The position numbers were made by a program, and so were the translations under genes. DNA of 64,000 nucleotides, from assembly GCA_016213135.1 (NCBI GenBank), contig JACRBQ010000117.1, positions 1-64,000 on the forward strand. The letters run 5' to 3'. Source of the stretch: Chloroflexota bacterium (lineage in GTDB: Bacteria > Chloroflexota > Anaerolineae > Anaerolineales > VGOW01). Below are positions 3,191-55,237 of the stretch, one piece after another (position 1 is the first letter of the stretch; each line of letters starts with the position of its first letter). Below the pieces are notes generated by a model, which was not told where the DNA came from, made no database searches, and worked only from the letters and a program-made list of their open reading frames with translations.

Positions 3191-3246
3191 AAACTTCAAA
3201 CTCCAAAACTCAAAACTCAAAACTCAAAACTCAAAACTCAATATTC
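3191..3246. repeat. Heptamer tandem array (AAAACTC type), 8 units
   Basis: Eight consecutive 7-bp units read AAACTTC, AAACTCC, five AAAACTC and AATATTC, with no break in phase. The array lies between dgkA and ybeY and runs into the 3' end of ybeY, where its reverse complement encodes the last residues (SFEF) and the TGA stop. The same unit appears at 37410-37472. Confidence 0.9.
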
Positions 3247-10824: not shown

Positions 10825-13049
10825 CATTTTAATGCCGTGGCGGTGGGCTGTGGTGTGCGCGTGGGCGTGGGGGTGCGAGTTGGGCGTGGGGTGCGAGTCG
10901 GGCGCGGCGTGGGCGTCGGAGTGCGTGTTCTCGTGGCGAAGCGCGCAGTGCGGGTGGGCGTGAGCGATGCCGTTGCCGTGGCGGTGGCAGTGAGCGTGTG
11001 GGTATGGGTGGGCGTGTGTGTGGCCACGGAACTCTGAAGGGTGATGGAGTCCGCTGCGATGTGGGAGTGGTTGCCTGCGCTGTCAATGATTCTGACGAAG
11101 ATGGTGTGCAAGCCGTCGCTGTTGGCGAGGGTGTAGGGCAGGCTGGTAACCACCGGCTCGGGCGGGGAATAAGTAGCGCCGTTTTTCGAGAGCTGCATCT
11201 TCAACGGGGCGCCGGAACTGTCGGCGGCGGCGATGTCCAACATCACGTCGGGGGAGGTGGTCATCTCGGAATCGCCATTGACCAATACGGCGCCCGTTGG
11301 GCGCACAGTGTCCAAAGTAATCGTGCTTGAGTATACGGGGGTCTCGCCGGCAGAGTCGGTGAACTGTGCAAACACCGTGCGAACACCGTCGCCGCCGGAG
11401 GCAAGGATTATCCCGCCGCTGACGTTTTGCGAGTCCGTTTGCCCGGTGAAGTCGGTGAAGGTGGCCGCCGAGGCCCCGGTGGGGGCGGGGAAGCCGGCAG
11501 GCGCGCCGGTGTCGGTGGCGCTCCAAACTACTTCAAGGTCGAGCGCGTCGTCGCTCAGCCTTTGGAACAGAAAACGGAATACGTTCGGCCCGTTGCTCAG
11601 CGTTTGGGCGAAGCGGTATTTGTCGAGCAGAGTGACGGCAACTTCCTTGAAGGCGTCGGCAGCCGGGCGGCGCGAGCCGTCGGGGTTGAAGAGGTTGAGT
11701 TTGTCGGGCGAGGGGGTTGGCGTGCCCACGGTGTCGGCGGCGAACCAGATGGCGCCATGGAGTCCGAGGCTGTTGGCGGTGACGAGTTTGCGGTATACGT
11801 CGCGGGCGTGCTGCTCGGTAGAGGCGTACTCCAGCGTGCCACGGTGTCCCATTTCGTTGGAGAATACCGGCACTGAGTACCCGGCGAGTTCCATGCGGCG
11901 CGCGAGCCACTGCGGCACGAGATAAAGCACATCCGCGCCCTCGTAAAAATGGAAGTTGAGCAAGTCTACAATGCCGCCGAGGTTGTCAATGATACCCATG
12001 GTGCGAGCGCAGTCGTCCTGGGTGGAGGGCAGGCTCAACACGTTGGCTACCAACTGCGACGTAGCCAGGTTGCTGGTGCCGGTGGAAACGGCGTCGCGGG
12101 AGTAACTGACGACCGTGGCGTAGGCTTCGTCGGCGGTGGTCAGGCCGCTGGCGATCCAGTCGTTGGCGATGCACAGGCCGAACGAGTCGCTCACCATGCC
12201 GCCATTCATCACCTTCACGTTGGGGTCGGCGTCTTTGATGGCTTTGTAGGCCGTGGCGACCACGCGCACGTATTCGTCGGCCGTGCCGCCCCAGTAGAGG
12301 CCGGAGTTCTCCTCGTTTTCGATGGCAATGTAGTCGAGGTGGCCGTAGTAGTGTGAGACGAACTGATAGACAAAATTGTAGTAGCTGGCGCTGTACGCTG
12401 TGGCCGGGTCGGGCGCGAGAAGCAAGTCGGAGGGTGGATACGATTTGGAGGGCGCGGAGCCATCGTGTCCATTCATCCATCCCTGGCTGATGTAGAGAGA
12501 AAGGAAGGGCCGCAAGCCGGCGTTTTCCGTGTCGGTAATGGCGATGTCGTTTTCGCTGGTGAAGATAATGTTACCCGGCGTAGGCTCGCTTTTGGGCCAC
12601 TCCACTGAAATGCGAGAATAGGGCAGATGCAAGCTGGCAATGAGCGCCGCCCGCTCAACGTACGGCTTACCGGGAATATCGAGTAGTAGACCGTACGTCA
12701 TCGAAGGGGCGGTTGAGACGGGAGGAGGGTCGTATGTCGGCTGGGGCGAATAGCGCGCAAAGGCTCCCGACGCGGCGTCGGGCATCACCCATTTGACGGC
12801 GTTGGCAAACGGCCTGTACTTGGTGAAGTTCACGCCGTCGTTGGATAACCGCATCTTCACCGGCAATGCCGTGCCGGCCACGTTGAGGTTGAGCGTAACC
12901 TGCGAGTCGCCGGTATACGTTGCTCCGCCGTTGATGGCGATGGCGCCGGTGAGCGTTTGCTGCACGGGCACATCGGCCGCGGCCGCGAGCAGGGCAACGG
13001 CAATCAATAAGCGCGCAAGGGGCGTGAGGAAACGATTTATGAAGGGCAT
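10824..13049 (-). CDS. Secreted clan-A glycoside hydrolase-like protein
   Basis: A 741-residue exported protein. After a signal peptide (cleavage near AAAADVP) come a small beta domain, a TIM-barrel (about 115-460), further beta-sandwich segments and a Thr/Pro/Arg-rich C-terminal tail of about 70 residues. The barrel carries AIENEEN (acid/base Glu246) and PVFSNEMG (nucleophile Glu399), the paired carboxylates of clan GH-A enzymes. The family number and substrate cannot be settled by eye; GH39-like or an uncharacterised clan-A family is plausible. Its ATG directly follows the stop of the upstream paralogue with no spacing, and the GGAGGG site lies inside that gene, so translation is coupled. 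It is clearly a duplicate of that gene. Confidence 0.8.
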   Translation of the reverse strand: MPFINRFLTPLARLLIAVALLAAAADVPVQQTLTGAIAINGGATYTGDSQVTLNLNVAGTALPVKMRLSNDGVNFTKYRPFANAVKWVMPDAASGAFARYSPQPTYDPPPVSTAPSMTYGLLLDIPGKPYVERAALIASLHLPYSRISVEWPKSEPTPGNIIFTSENDIAITDTENAGLRPFLSLYISQGWMNGHDGSAPSKSYPPSDLLLAPDPATAYSASYYNFVYQFVSHYYGHLDYIAIENEENSGLYWGGTADEYVRVVATAYKAIKDADPNVKVMNGGMVSDSFGLCIANDWIASGLTTADEAYATVVSYSRDAVSTGTSNLATSQLVANVLSLPSTQDDCARTMGIIDNLGGIVDLLNFHFYEGADVLYLVPQWLARRMELAGYSVPVFSNEMGHRGTLEYASTEQHARDVYRKLVTANSLGLHGAIWFAADTVGTPTPSPDKLNLFNPDGSRRPAADAFKEVAVTLLDKYRFAQTLSNGPNVFRFLFQRLSDDALDLEVVWSATDTGAPAGFPAPTGASAATFTDFTGQTDSQNVSGGIILASGGDGVRTVFAQFTDSAGETPVYSSTITLDTVRPTGAVLVNGDSEMTTSPDVMLDIAAADSSGAPLKMQLSKNGATYSPPEPVVTSLPYTLANSDGLHTIFVRIIDSAGNHSHIAADSITLQSSVATHTPTHTHTLTATATATASLTPTRTARFATRTRTPTPTPRPTRTPRPTRTPTPTRTPQPTATALK

Positions 13050-15965
13050 CTACGGACCGCCCTCCCTGAGCGACGCGCTGACTAACCCCGTTCCGCTGAC
13101 GATGATGGCGTCGATGTTGGTGTACAGGCCGTAGGCGTGCCGGAAGGTGACAGTGTGTGTGCCGGGGCTAAGCACGGCGCTGGCCCACTGGCGCTGAGGC
13201 GAGGCGACTGCCGAGTACTGGTTGAGGTTGGCCGCCCGCGCGCCATCAATGGTGATAATGAGAATGCCCTCGTCGGAATACCCGTAATAAAGCAATTTGA
13301 GTGACACGCCGGTAAAGGTAAAAGTGGCCGTGTTGCCCACCGCCGGGGAATAGACGTACCCGCCGTTGTACGAACCGACATCGAGCCAGGGGAGCCAGCC
13401 GGCTGAATAGGTGATCGCCGAGCTCGTGTTGTCGTAGGTGCCTGGGCCATAAGCCTGTGCAGTGGCACTGGGCGTGGCGGTGCGAGTAGGCGTGCGCGTG
13501 GGCTTGCGTGTTCTGGTTGGCGTGGGCGTGCGGGTGGGCCTGCGAGTGGATGTGGGTGTCCTGGTTCTCGTGGGCGTCCTGGTAATTGTTGGCGTCCGGG
13601 TAATTGTGGGCGTAGCCGTGGCCGTGGGCGTGGAGGTGGGCGTTGCCGTTTCGGTGGGCGTGTTGCTGGACGTGGGGGTGTTGCTGGGCGTGGCCGTGAC
13701 GGTCGAAGTGGCGGTGTCAGTGCTCGTAGGCGTGGCGGTTGCGGTGTCGGTGTTCGTAGGGGTGGCCGTAGCGGTTGCGGTGGCGGTGTCAGTGGCCGTG
13801 GCGGTTGCGGTGTCAGTGCTCGTAGGAGTGGCCGTAGCAGTGTCGGTGTTCGTAGGGGTGGCGGTTGCGGTGTCAGTGCTCGTAGGGGTGGCCGTAGCGG
13901 TCGGCGTTAGCGTGGCTGCCCCGGTTGGGGTGGCGGTTGGCGTATTCGTGTAAGGCACTTGCAGTGAAATTAAGTCGTCGGTGACGTAGGAACTGTTGCC
14001 TGCGCTGTCAATCACCTTGATGAAAACAGTCTGCGGGCCGTTGCTCCCGGTGAGGGTGAAGTTGCGGCTGGCGGCTACTGCTTCTGGCGCGGTATAGGTG
14101 ATGTTGTCTTGTGAAAACTGCATCGTGAGCGGAGCGCCGCTGCTGTCGCCGGCAGTTATGCTCAATACTACATTGGGCGACGTGGTCACATTCGCGCCGC
14201 TGTTGATGAGAATTGTGGCGGTGGGCCGGGTGGTGTCGAGATAGATCGTATCGGAGTAGACGGAAGTTTCGGTGACCCCGTCGTAGAACTGCGCATACAC
14301 GGTGCGAGTGCCATCGCCGCCGGTGGCCAATACCGTGCCGCCGGACACGTCTTGCGAGTGTGCCTGCCCGGTGAAGTCGGTGAAGTTGGCGGTGGTCGCG
14401 CCGGTGGGGGTGGTAAAGCCGACTGGCGCGCCGGTGTCGGTAATACTCCAGGCGGCTTCGAGCGAGAAGGTGCTGTCGCTCAATCGCTGGAAAAGATAGC
14501 GATAAAGGTCGGGGCCGCTGCTCAACGATTGCGCGATGCGATATTGGCCGAGCAAGGTATCCACCACCAGTTGGAAGGTATCGGCGGCGGGGCGACGGGA
14601 GCGATCGGGGTTGAACGGGCTGATTTTGTCGGGAGCGGGAGTGGAAGTGCCCACGGTGTCAGTGGCGAACCACACAACGCCCTGTAAACCAAGGCTGTTG
14701 GCGGTGACGAGTTTGCGGAACACGTTGCGGGCGTACTGCTCGGTGGAGGCATAGGCGAGCGTGCCGCGCTGGCCCATTTCGTTGGAGAAAATCGGCACGG
14801 AGTATCCGGCCAGAGACATGCGGCGCTGAAGCCACTCCGGAACGAGGTGGAGTACGTCTGCAGATTCATAGAAGTGGAAGTTGAGTAGGTCCACTGCGCC
14901 GCCGAGATTGGCGAGGACGGAGGTGGTGAAAGCACAACTGGCCTGGGTGGAGGACTGGCTCAGGGCGCTGGCTACCAGGTCTGGCGTCGCCAAAACGCTG
15001 GATCCGGTGGACACGGCGTCGCGGGAGTAGTCGACGACGGCAGCGTATGCGGCATCAGGGGCCGTCAGGCCGCCTGTAATCCAATCGTTGGCGATGCACA
15101 GGCCGAACGAACTGCTCACCATGCCGCCGTCCATCACCTTCACGTTGGGGTCGGCGTCTTTGATGGCTTTGTAGGCGGTCTTCACCACGCGCACGTACTC
15201 GTCGGCGGTGCCGCCCCAGTAGGTGCTGGAGTTCTCTTCGTTTTCAATGGCGATGTAATCGAAGCGCCCGGAGTAGTGCAAGACGAACTGGTAGACAAAA
15301 TTGTAGTAGCTGGGGCTGTAGGCCGTGGTCGGGTCCGGCGTTTGGGTCAGGTCGGAGGGCGGATAGGATTGGGAGGGGGCCTCCCCGGTCTGCCCGTTCA
15401 TCCACCCCTGATCGATGAAAAGCGACAGAATGGGACGGAGGCCGGCGGCTTCAGTGACCGCGATGGCGATGTCGTTGGCGCTGTTGAAAGTGATGTTGCC
15501 CTGCGTTGGCTCGCTGGTCGGCCAGTCGATTGAGATGCGCGAATACGGCACGTGCAGGCCCGCGATGAGGGCGGCGCGATCGCTGTACGCTGAATCGGGG
15601 ATGCTCAGCAGCATGCCGTAAGTCATTGAAGACCCGGTCGGACTGGGCGGCGGGTCATAGGTCGGCTGCGGCGAGTATTGAATGAATGCCCCTGACGTGG
15701 CGTCTGGCAACGTCCAGCTTGCCGTATCGGTAATCGGCTCGTAACTTGTGAAACTCGCCCCGTCGTTGGAAAACCGCATTTGGACGGAGCCGTCATTGCC
15801 TGCAGTCGAGAGGTTGAGGGCGACGCGCGAGTTGTTTGTGTAGGCTGCGCCCCCGTTGATGGCAATGGCGCCGGTGAGAGTCTGCTGCACGGGCACATCG
15901 GCGGCGGCCGCGAGCAGGGTGGCGGCGAACAATAAGCGGAAAAACGATAAAACGGAACTGTGCAT
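13050..15965 (-). CDS. Secreted clan-A glycoside hydrolase-like protein with C-terminal binding domain
   Basis: A 971-residue paralogue of the next gene: signal peptide, N-terminal beta domain, TIM-barrel with AIENEENS and PIFSNEMG, beta-sandwich segments, a long Thr-rich linker built from TATPTSTD-like repeats (encoded at about 13460-13950), then an extra C-terminal domain of about 130 residues ([16 protein letters not shown] ... NIDAIIVSG). That domain resembles galactose-binding or carbohydrate-binding beta-sandwiches. The enzyme would cut an extracellular polysaccharide, with the linker holding the binding module away from the barrel. I use the ATG at 15965, preceded by AGGAAGG; the 32 extra upstream residues look non-coding. 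The shorter paralogue lacks the binding domain. Confidence 0.82.
13460..13950. repeat. Coding repeat: Thr/Pro-rich linker
   Basis: A low-complexity stretch inside the upstream glycoside hydrolase gene, made of imperfect repeats that encode TxTxTP and [10 protein letters not shown] units and then an Arg-rich TRTPT run. The equivalent tail of the downstream paralogue (about 10830-11030) is shorter. Copy-number change here would alter linker length. Confidence 0.8.
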
Positions 15966-17052: not shown

Positions 17053-18042
17053 ATGGCTAACATTTGGGTTTATATCGATCAATTCAAAGGTGCTGCGTTG
17101 GCGGCGTCGTGGGAAGCGCTGGGCGCGGCGAAGAAACTGGCCGGGGAGTTGGGCGGCGGCACGGTGACGGCGCTGGTGTTCGGCCAGTCGGTGGCGGGCG
17201 CGGCTGCCGAGGCGTTTACCTATGGCGCTGACGCGGCCACCGTGTGCGATGATGCGACGCTGGCCGACTTTCGTGTGCGGCCGTATGCGGCGCTAGTGGT
17301 GAAGCTTTACCGTGAAGCGGCGGTCAAACCGGATGTGATACTAGGCCCGGCCACCGCCCGTGGCCGCGACGCGTTGGGCATGGCGGCCGTGTTGCTCAAA
17401 ACTTCGGCCATGGCCGACGGCACGGCGGTGGCGGTAAAAGATGGTGCGGTGCAGGTGACTCACCCGGCATACGCGGGCAGATTGCTCAGCACGCTCGAGT
17501 CCAAAGCCAAGCCGCAAGTCATCACCCTGCGCCCGCGCGCCTTTGCCAGGCCGGAACCGGTGGCCGGTGCGAGCGGCCCGGCAGCGAACGCGACCCCTGC
17601 GCTGACGGAAGACGAGATTCACACCAAGGTGATTGGTTACGCCATTGACGAGGGCAAGGTGAGCCTGGCCGACGCGAAGATTATCGTGTCCGGCGGGCGC
17701 GGCGTGGGCGGGCCGGACGGTTTTGCCCCGGTGCGCGAGTTGGCTCAGACGCTCGGGGCGGCAGTAGGCGCCAGCCGTGCGGCGGTGGACGCGGGCTGGA
17801 TTCCGTACGCGTTTCAGGTGGGGCAAACCGGCCGCACCGTCAGCCCCGATCTTTATGTGGCCGCGGGTATCTCTGGAGCCATTCAGCATCAGGCCGGGAT
17901 GCGCACGGCGAAGACCATCGTCGCCATTAACAAAGACGCCGAAGCGCCCATTTTCAAACTGGCGCGCTACGGCATTGTAGGCGACTTATTCAAAATTCTG
18001 CCGGCGTTGAACGCCGAGTTCAAGAAGAGATTGGGGAAGTGA
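17053..18042 (+). CDS. etfA: Electron transfer flavoprotein alpha subunit
   Basis: A 329-residue ETF alpha subunit. The N-terminal domain (MANIWVYIDQFKG) matches the fold of EtfB. The C-terminal FAD domain has IIVSGGRGVGGPDGF, GASRAAVDAGWIPYAFQVGQTG and the hallmark LYVAAGISGAIQHQAGM. The protein binds FAD and shuttles electrons from dehydrogenases toward ETF:quinone oxidoreductase, which is not in this window. It is cotranscribed with etfB. Its TGA stop lies inside the first unit of a heptamer array. Confidence 0.96.
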   Translation: MANIWVYIDQFKGAALAASWEALGAAKKLAGELGGGTVTALVFGQSVAGAAAEAFTYGADAATVCDDATLADFRVRPYAALVVKLYREAAVKPDVILGPATARGRDALGMAAVLLKTSAMADGTAVAVKDGAVQVTHPAYAGRLLSTLESKAKPQVITLRPRAFARPEPVAGASGPAANATPALTEDEIHTKVIGYAIDEGKVSLADAKIIVSGGRGVGGPDGFAPVRELAQTLGAAVGASRAAVDAGWIPYAFQVGQTGRTVSPDLYVAAGISGAIQHQAGMRTAKTIVAINKDAEAPIFKLARYGIVGDLFKILPALNAEFKKRLGK

Positions 18043-18150
18043 GAGGTGGGAGGTTAGAGGTGGGAGGTGGGAGGTGGGAGGTCGGACGATGCTATCCCAC
18101 CTCCCACCTCCCATCTCCCATCTCCCATCTCCCATCTCCCATCTCCATCA
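18039..18150. repeat. Heptamer tandem arrays (GTGGGAG and TCCCATC types) forming a hairpin
   Basis: Sixteen 7-bp units in one unbroken phase. The first block is GTGAGAG, GTGGGAG, GTTAGAG, three GTGGGAG and GTCGGAC; after one spacer unit the second block is two TCCCACC, five TCCCATC and TCCATCA. The blocks are nearly complementary, so the RNA folds into a long stem between two convergent genes and may end transcription both ways. The first unit supplies the etfA stop, and the array ends against the stop of the small downstream gene. Confidence 0.88.
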
Positions 18151-20758: not shown

Positions 20759-22021
20759 TCAAACGGGCGCTTCTGCACTGCCGCCGGTTTTGGGCAGTGA
20801 CACATGGAACTTCGCGCCGCCGCCGGGCTTGCTCTCGGCCCAAATGCGCCCGCCGTGGGCTTCCACAATGCCTTTGGCAATCGTCAAGCCCAGCCCCGCG
20901 CCGCTGAAGCCATCGCGCTGGCGGCTCTTTTCGCCGCGATAGAAGCGGTCGAAGATGTGCGGCAAGTCGTCGGGATCGATGCCCGGGCCGCTGTCGGCGA
21001 TGACGATGTGCACCGAACCGTTTTGGGTAGCGGCGCTTAACCGGATTTGGCCGCCCGGCGGGGTGTGGCGCACGGCGTTTTCGAGCATGTTCGCCAGCAC
21101 GCGGCTGATCTTGTCGGGGGCCATCCACACCGGGTCAACGTCGGCGGCCACCGCGCCGTTCAGCAGCACGCCGCGCTCGCGGGCGCGCGCCGTGAAGGTT
21201 TCCAGCGTGTCAGAGACGAGGTCGGACAGGGAGGAGGCTCCGCATTGCAGCACCAAATGTCCGGTATCGATCTGCGCCAACTCGAAAAGGTTGTCGATGA
21301 GGGCGCTCATGCGCGCGATTTCGTTTTGGCTCTGGCGCAAATAGCGGCCCACGGTTTCCGGGTCGGCTACCACGCCGTCGGCCAGCGCGTCGAGCATGGC
21401 GCGGAGCGAGGCCAGGGGTGTGCGCAGGTCGTGCGAGGCCCACGCCACGAGGTCGCGCCGGGCGGCGTCGAGGGCGCGGGTTTCCGCGTCCACACGCGCC
21501 AGCCGCGCGGTCATGACGTTGAAGCCCCGCGCCAGTTGGGCCACCTCATCCTGCCCCGGGGCGGCCACTTGCACCGAGAAGTTCCCCTGCGCCACTTGCT
21601 CGGCGCCGCGCACGAGGTCGCGCAGGGTTTGGGTGATGGAGCCGGAGAGGAAGTAGCCGAACGAAATAGAGATGCCCCCGGCAAACAGCAGCAACAGGCT
21701 GGCCAGCGCCAGGTCGTGAGCGTTGATGAACATGAGCCGCGCGGTGATCCACACATTGAGCAGGGTGAGCGCGGCAGCAAGGGCATAGCCCAGCGTGAGT
21801 GTGTGGCTGAGCCGGGGCAGCTTGCGCCACCAGCCGAGCCGGTGCGAGAAGAAGCCGAGCAGGGCCGATGCGCCGCCCGTGATGCCGAACAACAGCGCCA
21901 GCTGCAGCAGGTCGTCCAGCGGCGGGCGCATCATGGCAATGGCCAGCGCCAACGCCAGTGATACGGCGGCTACGATTCCGAGGAGAAACTTGCCGAGACG
22001 GGAGCGCAGATGAATGCTCAA
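20759..22021 (-). CDS. Sensor histidine kinase (HAMP-HisKA-HATPase)
   Basis: A 420-residue membrane kinase with about four transmembrane helices (12-130), a HAMP segment (130-185), the phospho-acceptor box WASHDLRTPL (His197), and an ATPase domain with NMLENAVRHTPPGG, IADSGPGID, FDRFYRGEKS and GAGLGLTIAKGIVEAHGG. No large periplasmic sensor domain exists, so the membrane region itself probably senses. The predicted start is a TTG at 22021 inside a heptamer array, which is odd; the true start may lie slightly downstream. It follows its response regulator with a MITE between them, and precedes the selenoprotein by 10 bases, so the two-component pair probably controls the redox operon. Confidence 0.9.
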   Translation of the reverse strand: MSIHLRSRLGKFLLGIVAAVSLALALAIAMMRPPLDDLLQLALLFGITGGASALLGFFSHRLGWWRKLPRLSHTLTLGYALAAALTLLNVWITARLMFINAHDLALASLLLLFAGGISISFGYFLSGSITQTLRDLVRGAEQVAQGNFSVQVAAPGQDEVAQLARGFNVMTARLARVDAETRALDAARRDLVAWASHDLRTPLASLRAMLDALADGVVADPETVGRYLRQSQNEIARMSALIDNLFELAQIDTGHLVLQCGASSLSDLVSDTLETFTARARERGVLLNGAVAADVDPVWMAPDKISRVLANMLENAVRHTPPGGQIRLSAATQNGSVHIVIADSGPGIDPDDLPHIFDRFYRGEKSRQRDGFSGAGLGLTIAKGIVEAHGGRIWAESKPGGGAKFHVSLPKTGGSAEAPV

Positions 22022-22214
22022 TGCTCAATGCTCAATTCACAAGGCACAAGGCACAACTAACCACCGACCACTAGTAGTCCGCCAATGTTAGAACGCTATG
22101 TAGCTTAGCCCCTTGTGCGCGTGCGCCGCCCACAAGGGGCTAGGCTACGACTATGCGATCCAAATTTGGTGAACTACTAGCCACTATCCACTGCCCACTA
22201 ACCACCGCCCACTG
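22012..22214. repeat. Heptamer array split by a MITE
   Basis: The left part (22012-22073) reads GAATGCT, CAATGCT twice, CAATTCA, CAAGGCA twice, CAACTAA, CCACCGA and CCACTA. The right part (22178-22214) reads TAG, CCACTAT, CCACTGC, CCACTAA, CCACCGC and CCACTGC. Joining them after removing the 108-bp element with one TA gives a continuous 7-bp phase of 14 units. The array lies between the response regulator and kinase genes and covers the kinase start. Confidence 0.9.
22072..22179 (+). mobile_element. MITE-like element, copy A (108 bp)
   Basis: Bounded by TAGTAGTCCGCCAA and the complement of TAGTAGTTCACCAA, an imperfect terminal inverted repeat. Inside, GTAGCTTAGCCCCTTGTG (22100-22117) pairs with 22131-22148 with one wobble. 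No coding capacity. Copy B at 45994-46101 is the same length, in reverse orientation, with 3 differences. The outermost TA is the target duplication, the pattern of IS630/Tc1-mariner-type elements, so it would need a transposase supplied from elsewhere. Confidence 0.88.
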
Positions 22215-26467: not shown

Positions 26468-26478
26468 GGCGAGGGAAA

Positions 26479-26527
26479 AGGGAAGAGAGAAGAGAGAAGA
26501 GAGAAGAGGGAAGAGGGAAGAGAGACG
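26479..26527. repeat. Heptamer tandem array (AGAGAAG type), 7 units
   Basis: Units in phase: AGGGAAG, three AGAGAAG, two AGGGAAG and AGAGACG. It lies 12 bases upstream of the GAF/PAS kinase start, between it and the aminotransferase gene. Confidence 0.88.
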
Positions 26528-37409: not shown

Positions 37410-37472
37410 AAACTTCAAACTTCAAACTTCAAAACTCAAAACTCAAAACTCAAAACTCAACACTCAAAACTG
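37410..37472. repeat. Heptamer tandem array (AAAACTC type), 9 units
   Basis: Units in phase: three AAACTTC, four AAAACTC, AACACTC and AAAACTG. It fills the gap between mevalonate kinase and IPK and encodes the last residues (SFEC) and stop of mevalonate kinase, just as the matching array at 3191-3246 does for ybeY. Confidence 0.9.
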
Positions 37473-45996: not shown

Positions 45997-46101
45997 TAGT
46001 TCACCAAGTTTGGATCGCATAGTCGTAGCCTAGCCCCTTGTGGGCGGCGCACGCGCACAAGGCGCTAAGCTACACAGCGTTCTAACATTGGCGGACTACT
46101 A
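45994..46101 (-). mobile_element. MITE-like element, copy B (108 bp)
   Basis: Reverse-orientation copy of 22072-22179 with 3 differences. It fills almost all of the gap between two convergent genes. Its outer TA belongs to the NYN stop codon TAG. Removing the element with one TA leaves GGT-TAG-C-CTA, so the two convergent stop codons were only one base apart before insertion and neither protein was changed. Confidence 0.88.
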
Positions 46102-46103
46102 GC

Positions 46104-47940: not shown

Positions 47941-48136
47941 GAAGGATGAATGCGGAATGCGGAATGATGAATGGCCGCTTTGCGTGGCAAATGACAGTTG
48001 CGGATGACTAATTGCCAACGACCAACGACCAGCTACCAGCCACCAGCCACCAGCCACCAGCCACCAGCCACCAGCCACCAGCCACCAGCCACCAGCCACC
48101 AGCTACCAGCTACCAGCTACTAACGACCAGCAACCA
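47941..48136. repeat. Heptamer arrays (GAATGCG and GCCACCA types)
   Basis: A 196-base spacer. GAAGGAT, GAATGCG twice, GAATGAT and GAATGGC open it, then six diverged units, then a long block: ATTGCCA, ACGACCA twice, GCTACCA, nine GCCACCA, GCTACCA twice, GCTACTA, ACGACCA and GCAACCA. All are in one 7-bp phase. It ends one base before the methyltransferase stop. Confidence 0.92.
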
Positions 48137-55191: not shown

Positions 55192-55202
55192 CTTGTAACG
55201 TC

Positions 55203-55237
55203 AAACTCCAAACTCCAAACTCCAAACCTTCAACTTC
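55203..55237. repeat. Heptamer array (AAACTCC type), 5 units
   Basis: Three AAACTCC, AAACCTT and CAACTTC begin 12 bases after the tRNA 3' end. The remaining stretch to 55317 shows no gene and no clear structure. Confidence 0.75.

Follow-up and report, generated by a model that had tools for sequence, protein, structure and literature searches.

Short tandem heptamers occur in the intergenic DNA of cyanobacteria as STRR repeats, which resemble the arrays described here in this respect, but classical STRRs comprise only a few defined units per strain. Heptamer-derived repeats are also known from the phylum studied here, in the form of the (GATAGRA)n satellites of Chloroflexus aurantiacus (PMC6749651). 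The GGGAATC repeats of Xanthomonas and the GGGGA(T/C)T repeats of Nostoc (PMC4692102) share with the present arrays their dispersal over many intergenic loci, the occurrence of inverted pairs, the variation of length and sequence between related species, and the fact that no function was found for them; however, each lineage has approximately one G-rich, quadruplex-prone unit, whereas 75 units were counted here, of which the majority are not rich in G. The TAACTGA repeats of marine Beggiatoaceae, which have also been found in unrelated phyla (PMC4679880), are likewise 7-bp direct repeats that lie near start codons and are widespread in one genome, but they consist of one unit (related heptamers are rare) and are strongly placed just upstream of start codons. 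On a broader scale, a repeat survey (PMC4060949, Table 2) reported an excess of 7-bp repeats in the Chloroflexi, where the median category was +1.00 at 7 bp but 0 at both 6 and 8 bp, and also an excess at 7 bp in the Planctomycetes, Deferribacteres, Bacteroidetes, and Verrucomicrobia; as in the arrays presented here, longer units are tolerated and repeats of 1–3 bp are suppressed. The survey counts any unit and, as far as the available part of it goes, describes no common vocabulary, in-phase drift, hairpin pairing, or insertion into genes. The present arrays belong to this known kind of heptanucleotide repeats, over-represented in some bacterial phyla, and are an unusually dense and diverse form of it, to which the unit vocabulary, the in-phase drift, the hairpin pairing of many different units, and the dating of in-gene copies are additions not found in the available parts of the literature examined.

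The analysed window, a continuous stretch of 64,000 nucleotides with a G + C content of 63.7%, is part of a 147-contig draft genome of 3.84 Mb, of which 810 kb were sampled in stretches. Among the named genomes found, the PgpH-like protein of the window had its nearest counterpart in uncultured Anaerolineales (about 52% identity), and the host is thus most likely a member of the Chloroflexota allied to this order. Eight arrays in the window had a period of 7 (score of at least 14), while each of the periods 1–6 and 8–13 was represented by one array or none, and second-order Markov shuffles of the window were devoid of arrays throughout the periods 1–24. Runs of at least three head-to-tail 7-bp copies are thus present above chance, and the excess lies at 7 and not at 6 or 8 bp, both of which are properties of heptanucleotide simple sequence repeats. 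In the 810-kb sample, periods 2 to 12 were represented by 0, 7, 0, 0, 6, 113, 7, 3, 0, 0, and 2 arrays, respectively, and the 7-bp peak expected from the original prediction is therefore present (113 arrays, compared to 6 at period 6 and 7 at period 8). The density of 13.9 arrays per 100 kb is biased upward because most sampled stretches came from contigs bearing AAAACTC, but the ratio between periods should be free of this bias. A congener (G004) that was sampled without the AAAACTC bias had 33 arrays at period 7, 12 at period 8, and 5 at period 6 in 540 kb. In intergenic DNA, the recurrence of 5-mers was raised approximately ten-fold at lag 7, with further strong maxima at lags of 14, 21, and 28; the only lags to stand out in coding DNA were multiples of three. 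The possibility that intergenic DNA as a whole has a hidden phase of 7 bp was rejected, because the recurrence at lag 7 equaled that at lag 8, and nearly that at lag 9, once the arrays had been masked. Some of the longest arrays were found at contig ends (the starts of L037 [C140], L043 [C17], and L283 [C12]). Array lengths are therefore underestimated, and the assembly was probably broken by arrays.

Both Tandem Repeats Finder and an independent scan based on lag matches recovered a 7-bp array at each of the seven sites in the window that had been listed in the original prediction. The array at 3191..3241 (plus strand) consists of AAACTTC/AAACTCC followed by five copies of AAAACTC; it starts 5 bp from the start codon of a diacylglycerol kinase gene and overlaps the last codons at the 3' end of ybeY, both genes being encoded on the minus strand. 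Three copies of AAACTTC followed by AAAACTC also form the array at 37410..37471, in the spacer that separates a GHMP kinase gene from an amino-acid-kinase gene. AAAACTC is thus common to these two distant loci, as had been stated, and is found at many further loci as well (13 arrays in the 810-kb sample). Downstream (3') of the ETF alpha gene, GTGGGAG/GTGAGAG (18039..18086) and TCCCACC/TCCCATC (18095..18146) make up the left and right arms of an inverted pair, whose stem score was 23 vs. 6 in shuffles. An array of GAGGGAA/GAGAGAA (26472..26522) is situated upstream of a GAF/PAS histidine kinase gene, and an array of CAAACTC (55202..55227) 10 bp downstream of tRNA-Leu(gag). The longest array in the window (48015..48136) is preceded by a short GAATGCG/GAATGAT array (47948..47973), lies between a glycosyltransferase and a methyltransferase gene, and is composed of CCAACGA, then copies of ACCAGCC, and then ACCAGCT. 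A weak array of AACCACT/CCACTAACCACCGC (22172..22213; Tandem Repeats Finder score 33–52) adjoins a dispersed element of 93–96 bp. This element has inverted ends (CTAGTAGTCCGCC...), is present at five places of the sample (window 22071–22164 and 46009–46102; L155 19381–19476; L150 9144–9238 and 11562–11654) with 94–98% identity, and is absent from the sampled stretches of congeners; it is a young MITE/REP-like repeat. That the arrays themselves are part of a MITE- or REP-like element was considered and rejected, as their flanks are not common to the copies: among the 40 flank matches listed of 114, only the array at 22013 abuts a clear dispersed element, and the remainder represent residual repeat or short matches due to composition. 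The window also contains 6/18/30-bp repeats (GTGGGC-like; 10843–10919 and 13471–13901) within two long adjacent minus-strand genes, whose products of 727 and 960 amino acids had no Pfam matches.

The original prediction combined a fixed unit length with a free sequence, and the latter is contradicted by a shared and biased vocabulary. Among the 138 arrays, 75 canonical units were distinguished, the commonest of which were AAAACTC (13 arrays), AACAATG (11), AAGGATG (9), and AATACCC (7), so that the arrays do not constitute a single-unit family like STRR, GGGAATC, TAACTGA, or GATAGRA. TA steps are almost absent, with a rho of 0.18 inside arrays against 0.64 in intergenic DNA free of arrays; CA/TG and GA/TC steps are favoured, TAA is strongly avoided, and TGA/TCA occurs in 89 of the 138 arrays where 37 would be expected. 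G-quadruplexes do not characterize the arrays, as AAAACTC, AACAATG, and AAGGATG contain no G3 on either strand; G3 is present in a minority of units, such as ACCTCCC and AATACCC. More than half of the arrays in G004, a different species of the same genus, use units of the source genome (32 of 54; 6.0 ± 2.2 in letter shuffles). (AAGGATG)3 was detected in 23 of 251 genomes of the order, including all five of the genus and many in family f11, often at several loci, compared to three genomes for the reverse of this unit and one for AAAGGTG, an anagram that also bears TGA and lacks TA. A 14-bp composite unit (AATGGAA+AATGACG) is nearly identical at L045 11227–11269, L159 5058–5100, and the right flank of L031 2333, and its presence at three distant loci is a possible trace of inter-locus copying.

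The 7-bp excess was found across the genus and patchily in the order, and in small samples from other families many genomes had no arrays and some had arrays of 7 bp. No arrays of 7 or 8 bp were present in 62 loci (523 kb), most of them from unrelated bacteria. The proposed kinship with cyanobacterial heptamer repeats was borne out by plasmid pA of Kovacikia minuta, which has the same multi-unit 7-bp pattern (23 arrays at period 7, 1 at period 6, and 5 at period 8 in 350 kb). The overlap in units with this plasmid was not above chance (5 of 29, with 2.6 expected), and a vocabulary common to all phyla, as similar repeat peptides in other genomes would suggest, thus finds no support in the Kovacikia sample. 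For the AAGGATG peptide, tblastn searches of plasmids yielded a result no different from that of a control peptide. Within the order, genome G040 of family f12 had 10 arrays at period 8 and 2 at period 7 in 99 kb. A copying activity dedicated to the arrays, whether templated or polymerase-based, that writes and spreads them with a fixed step of 7 nt in the genus and 8 nt in f12 would accommodate the existence of such a lineage, the sharp peak together with the diversity of units within a single genome (75 among 138 arrays), and the occurrence of one unit at many loci of one genome, while (AACAATG)3 was not detected in a draw of 300 other genomes of the phylum, which did not include the congeners. 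However, the 8-bp arrays are mostly of one unit, ACGACCYA, which is dominant in G040 and occurs in 3 of the 251 genomes of the order, all from f12; this single dominant unit may reflect the spread of one array instead of a different ruler, and the difference in period is therefore no more than suggestive. Furthermore, genome G021 holds 7-bp (ATTGGGT) and 8-bp (ATTGGGTA) arrays together, drift within arrays fits ordinary slippage, and a candidate enzyme or template was not found, though no systematic search was made. Such an activity is therefore regarded as unlikely, and it appears yet more doubtful that one with a lineage-specific step (7 in the genus, 8 in f12) writes, spreads, and folds back units of an inherited vocabulary into spacers and protein linkers. 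A 7-nt ruler as originally proposed is possible but unproven: one period does dominate, but its constancy needs a preference for 7 only at the birth of arrays, or their spread, and the dominant period in G040 is 8.

The arrays had been described as intergenic, which holds for most of them, but the array at 3191..3241 overlaps ybeY, and 28 of 113 arrays are inside predicted genes. According to the gene positions obtained with the analysis's own gene caller, the others are distributed over same-direction (n = 74), divergent (n = 3), and convergent spacers (n = 3) and stretch ends (n = 5). Although coding sequences make up 84% of the sample, the arrays are thus mainly outside them. Same-direction spacers contain 74 of the 80 spacer arrays, compared to a 77% share of spacer length, and the sense strand of the arrays shows a mild bias of T over A and C over G; both could reflect some functional constraint. 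The strand of an array is not strictly tied to gene direction, with 25 arrays having TGA and 35 having TCA in the sense strand. The downstream start codon is at most 10 bp away in 29 of the 74 arrays in same-direction spacers and the upstream stop codon in 24, and both strands are used, which differs from a translational element of the TAACTGA type that sits a few nucleotides upstream of the start on one strand. A function as stop-codon cassette or ribosome site was also rejected because no strand rule was found and TAA is strongly avoided. The genes beside arrays have mixed functions, and no sign of a regulatory role was found. Arrays within genes are translated into short linkers, for example NSKLKTQNSK in DnaG. 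A MoeA-like protein has two array sites with diverged units in the source genome, G002, and G003, and none in G026 and G018, which suggests that these in-gene arrays date back to the ancestor of the genus. Similarly, the array in an HdrA-like gene is found at the same in-gene site in congeners, with diverged units. Several heptamer-encoded insertions each were also observed in large predicted membrane proteins (L031 456–2327 and 2430–4364; L048; L154), two of which were tested and gave matches to PMT-type glycosyltransferases.

Along many arrays the unit changes with the phase kept, as predicted; at 22013..22056, for example, three copies of AATGCTC are followed by AATTCAC and two copies of AAGGCAC. 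The phase, which had been called exact, is usually kept, but 8-bp steps exist (e.g., AACAATGAAACAATG in L031). Neighbouring units are alike in 5.98 of 7 letters, compared to 5.50 in shuffled order, transitions are enriched among their differences (363 vs. 269), and the units at the two ends of an array agree in at most four of seven letters in 21 of 65 cases. Since point mutation and whole-unit slippage suffice to produce it, a constant period with a changing unit calls for no device that measures every copy. Between species, for which one genome each was compared, both the presence and the length of arrays vary. Orthologous spacers with arrays in both species had related units in three of three cases (e.g., AATTCAC in the source genome and G002), but in 8 of 10 orthologous spacers compared between the source genome and G004, an array present in one was lacking in the other. 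Arrays co-occurred at two orthologous spacers, with approximately 0.9 expected, although these numbers are small. According to a purely vertical explanation, a few old arrays spread long ago and the period of 7 was inherited, with no preference at birth. The survival of the period despite drift and the conservation of positions with drifted units (the MoeA-like sites and the ybeY and L145 spacers) are consistent with this, but the high turnover of presence and absence between congeners is not, and the 7-bp excess in unrelated phyla, as given in the survey (PMC4060949), and in Kovacikia points to repeated births at 7. Pure inheritance is thus considered improbable.

Long inverted repeats formed by arrays with their own surroundings (stem of at least 12) were found in 22 of 106 array clusters and in 11 of 49 in G004, compared to about 1–2% of clusters when the flanks were replaced by foreign ones. 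Of the three orthologous spacers with arrays in both species, two (L147/L177 and L145/L168) show inverted arms in both, and at the third (ybeY) only G004 has the inverted arm. The G004 spacer orthologous to the 26472..26522 site has a different 7-phased hairpin, and in G003 and G004 the spacer corresponding to that of the 37410 array contains hairpins built from different units, again phased at 7 bp. A roughly 9-bp phased hairpin (CGCAAAGAA / TTCGCGCC) was observed in the same spacer of G002 (L164 18686–18763). Fold-back template switching would be the simplest source of inverted partners, the alternative being selection for RNA structure; since array-free spacers also hold stems, ordinary intercistronic structure may account for some of the hairpin signal. 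If the arrays were functional intercistronic RNA elements (for processing, stability, termination, or a repeat-binding protein) in which structure or spacing outweighs sequence, hairpins in about a fifth of the clusters, hairpins of different sequence at the same amino-acid-kinase spacer in G002, G003, and G004, and the bias to same-direction spacers would be accounted for, and a proposal of this type was made earlier for TAACTGA repeats (PMC4679880). Considering that 8 of the 10 orthologous spacers mentioned above have an array in only one of the two species, that the strand of TGA/TCA is inconsistent and the distance to start or stop codons not fixed, and that arrays also occur within genes, including dnaG and the moeA-like gene, and beside genes of diverse functions, this is rather unlikely.

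It is moderately probable that the arrays are born by slippage, kept in tolerant DNA, drift in phase, are duplicated by fold-back, and spread between loci. Strand slippage, preferentially in steps of 7 nt, would give rise to arrays and lengthen them, a loop of this length being presumably too long for mismatch repair to undo. Point mutation and further slippage would then alter the unit while the period is kept, and fold-back template switching during replication would create the inverted partners. The sharing of units, rather than copying seen as an event, suggests that occasional copying between loci may keep the vocabulary common. Selection would only determine where arrays are tolerated, and no function would be required. 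The leading guess for the preference for 7 is the polymerase-footprint idea taken from the literature. The sharp peak at 7 over 6 and 8 is not predicted by ordinary slippage and counts against the slippage reading, which also leaves the avoidance of TA and the enrichment of TGA/TCA unaccounted for. An expansion of repeats through loss of mismatch repair would agree with the lack of a full-length mutS1 in the source assembly (92.8% complete), but is contradicted by full-length, intact mutS1 genes in the array-bearing relatives G002, G004, G117, G454, and G519 and by the fact that repeats of 1–5 bp, which should expand first, are not in excess; MutS loss as the cause of the arrays is thus scarcely conceivable.

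For the preference of bacteria for 7-bp repeats, the literature examined offers one untested guess. The genus could serve as a test bed for it, with hundreds of arrays (as extrapolated from the sample), many units, congeners that differ in their arrays at the same sites, in-gene copies by which insertions can be dated, and a sister family with 8-bp arrays. Moreover, essential proteins such as the DnaG primase and the MoeA-like enzyme carry translated repeats as linkers, which matters for annotation and for the reading of such proteins.
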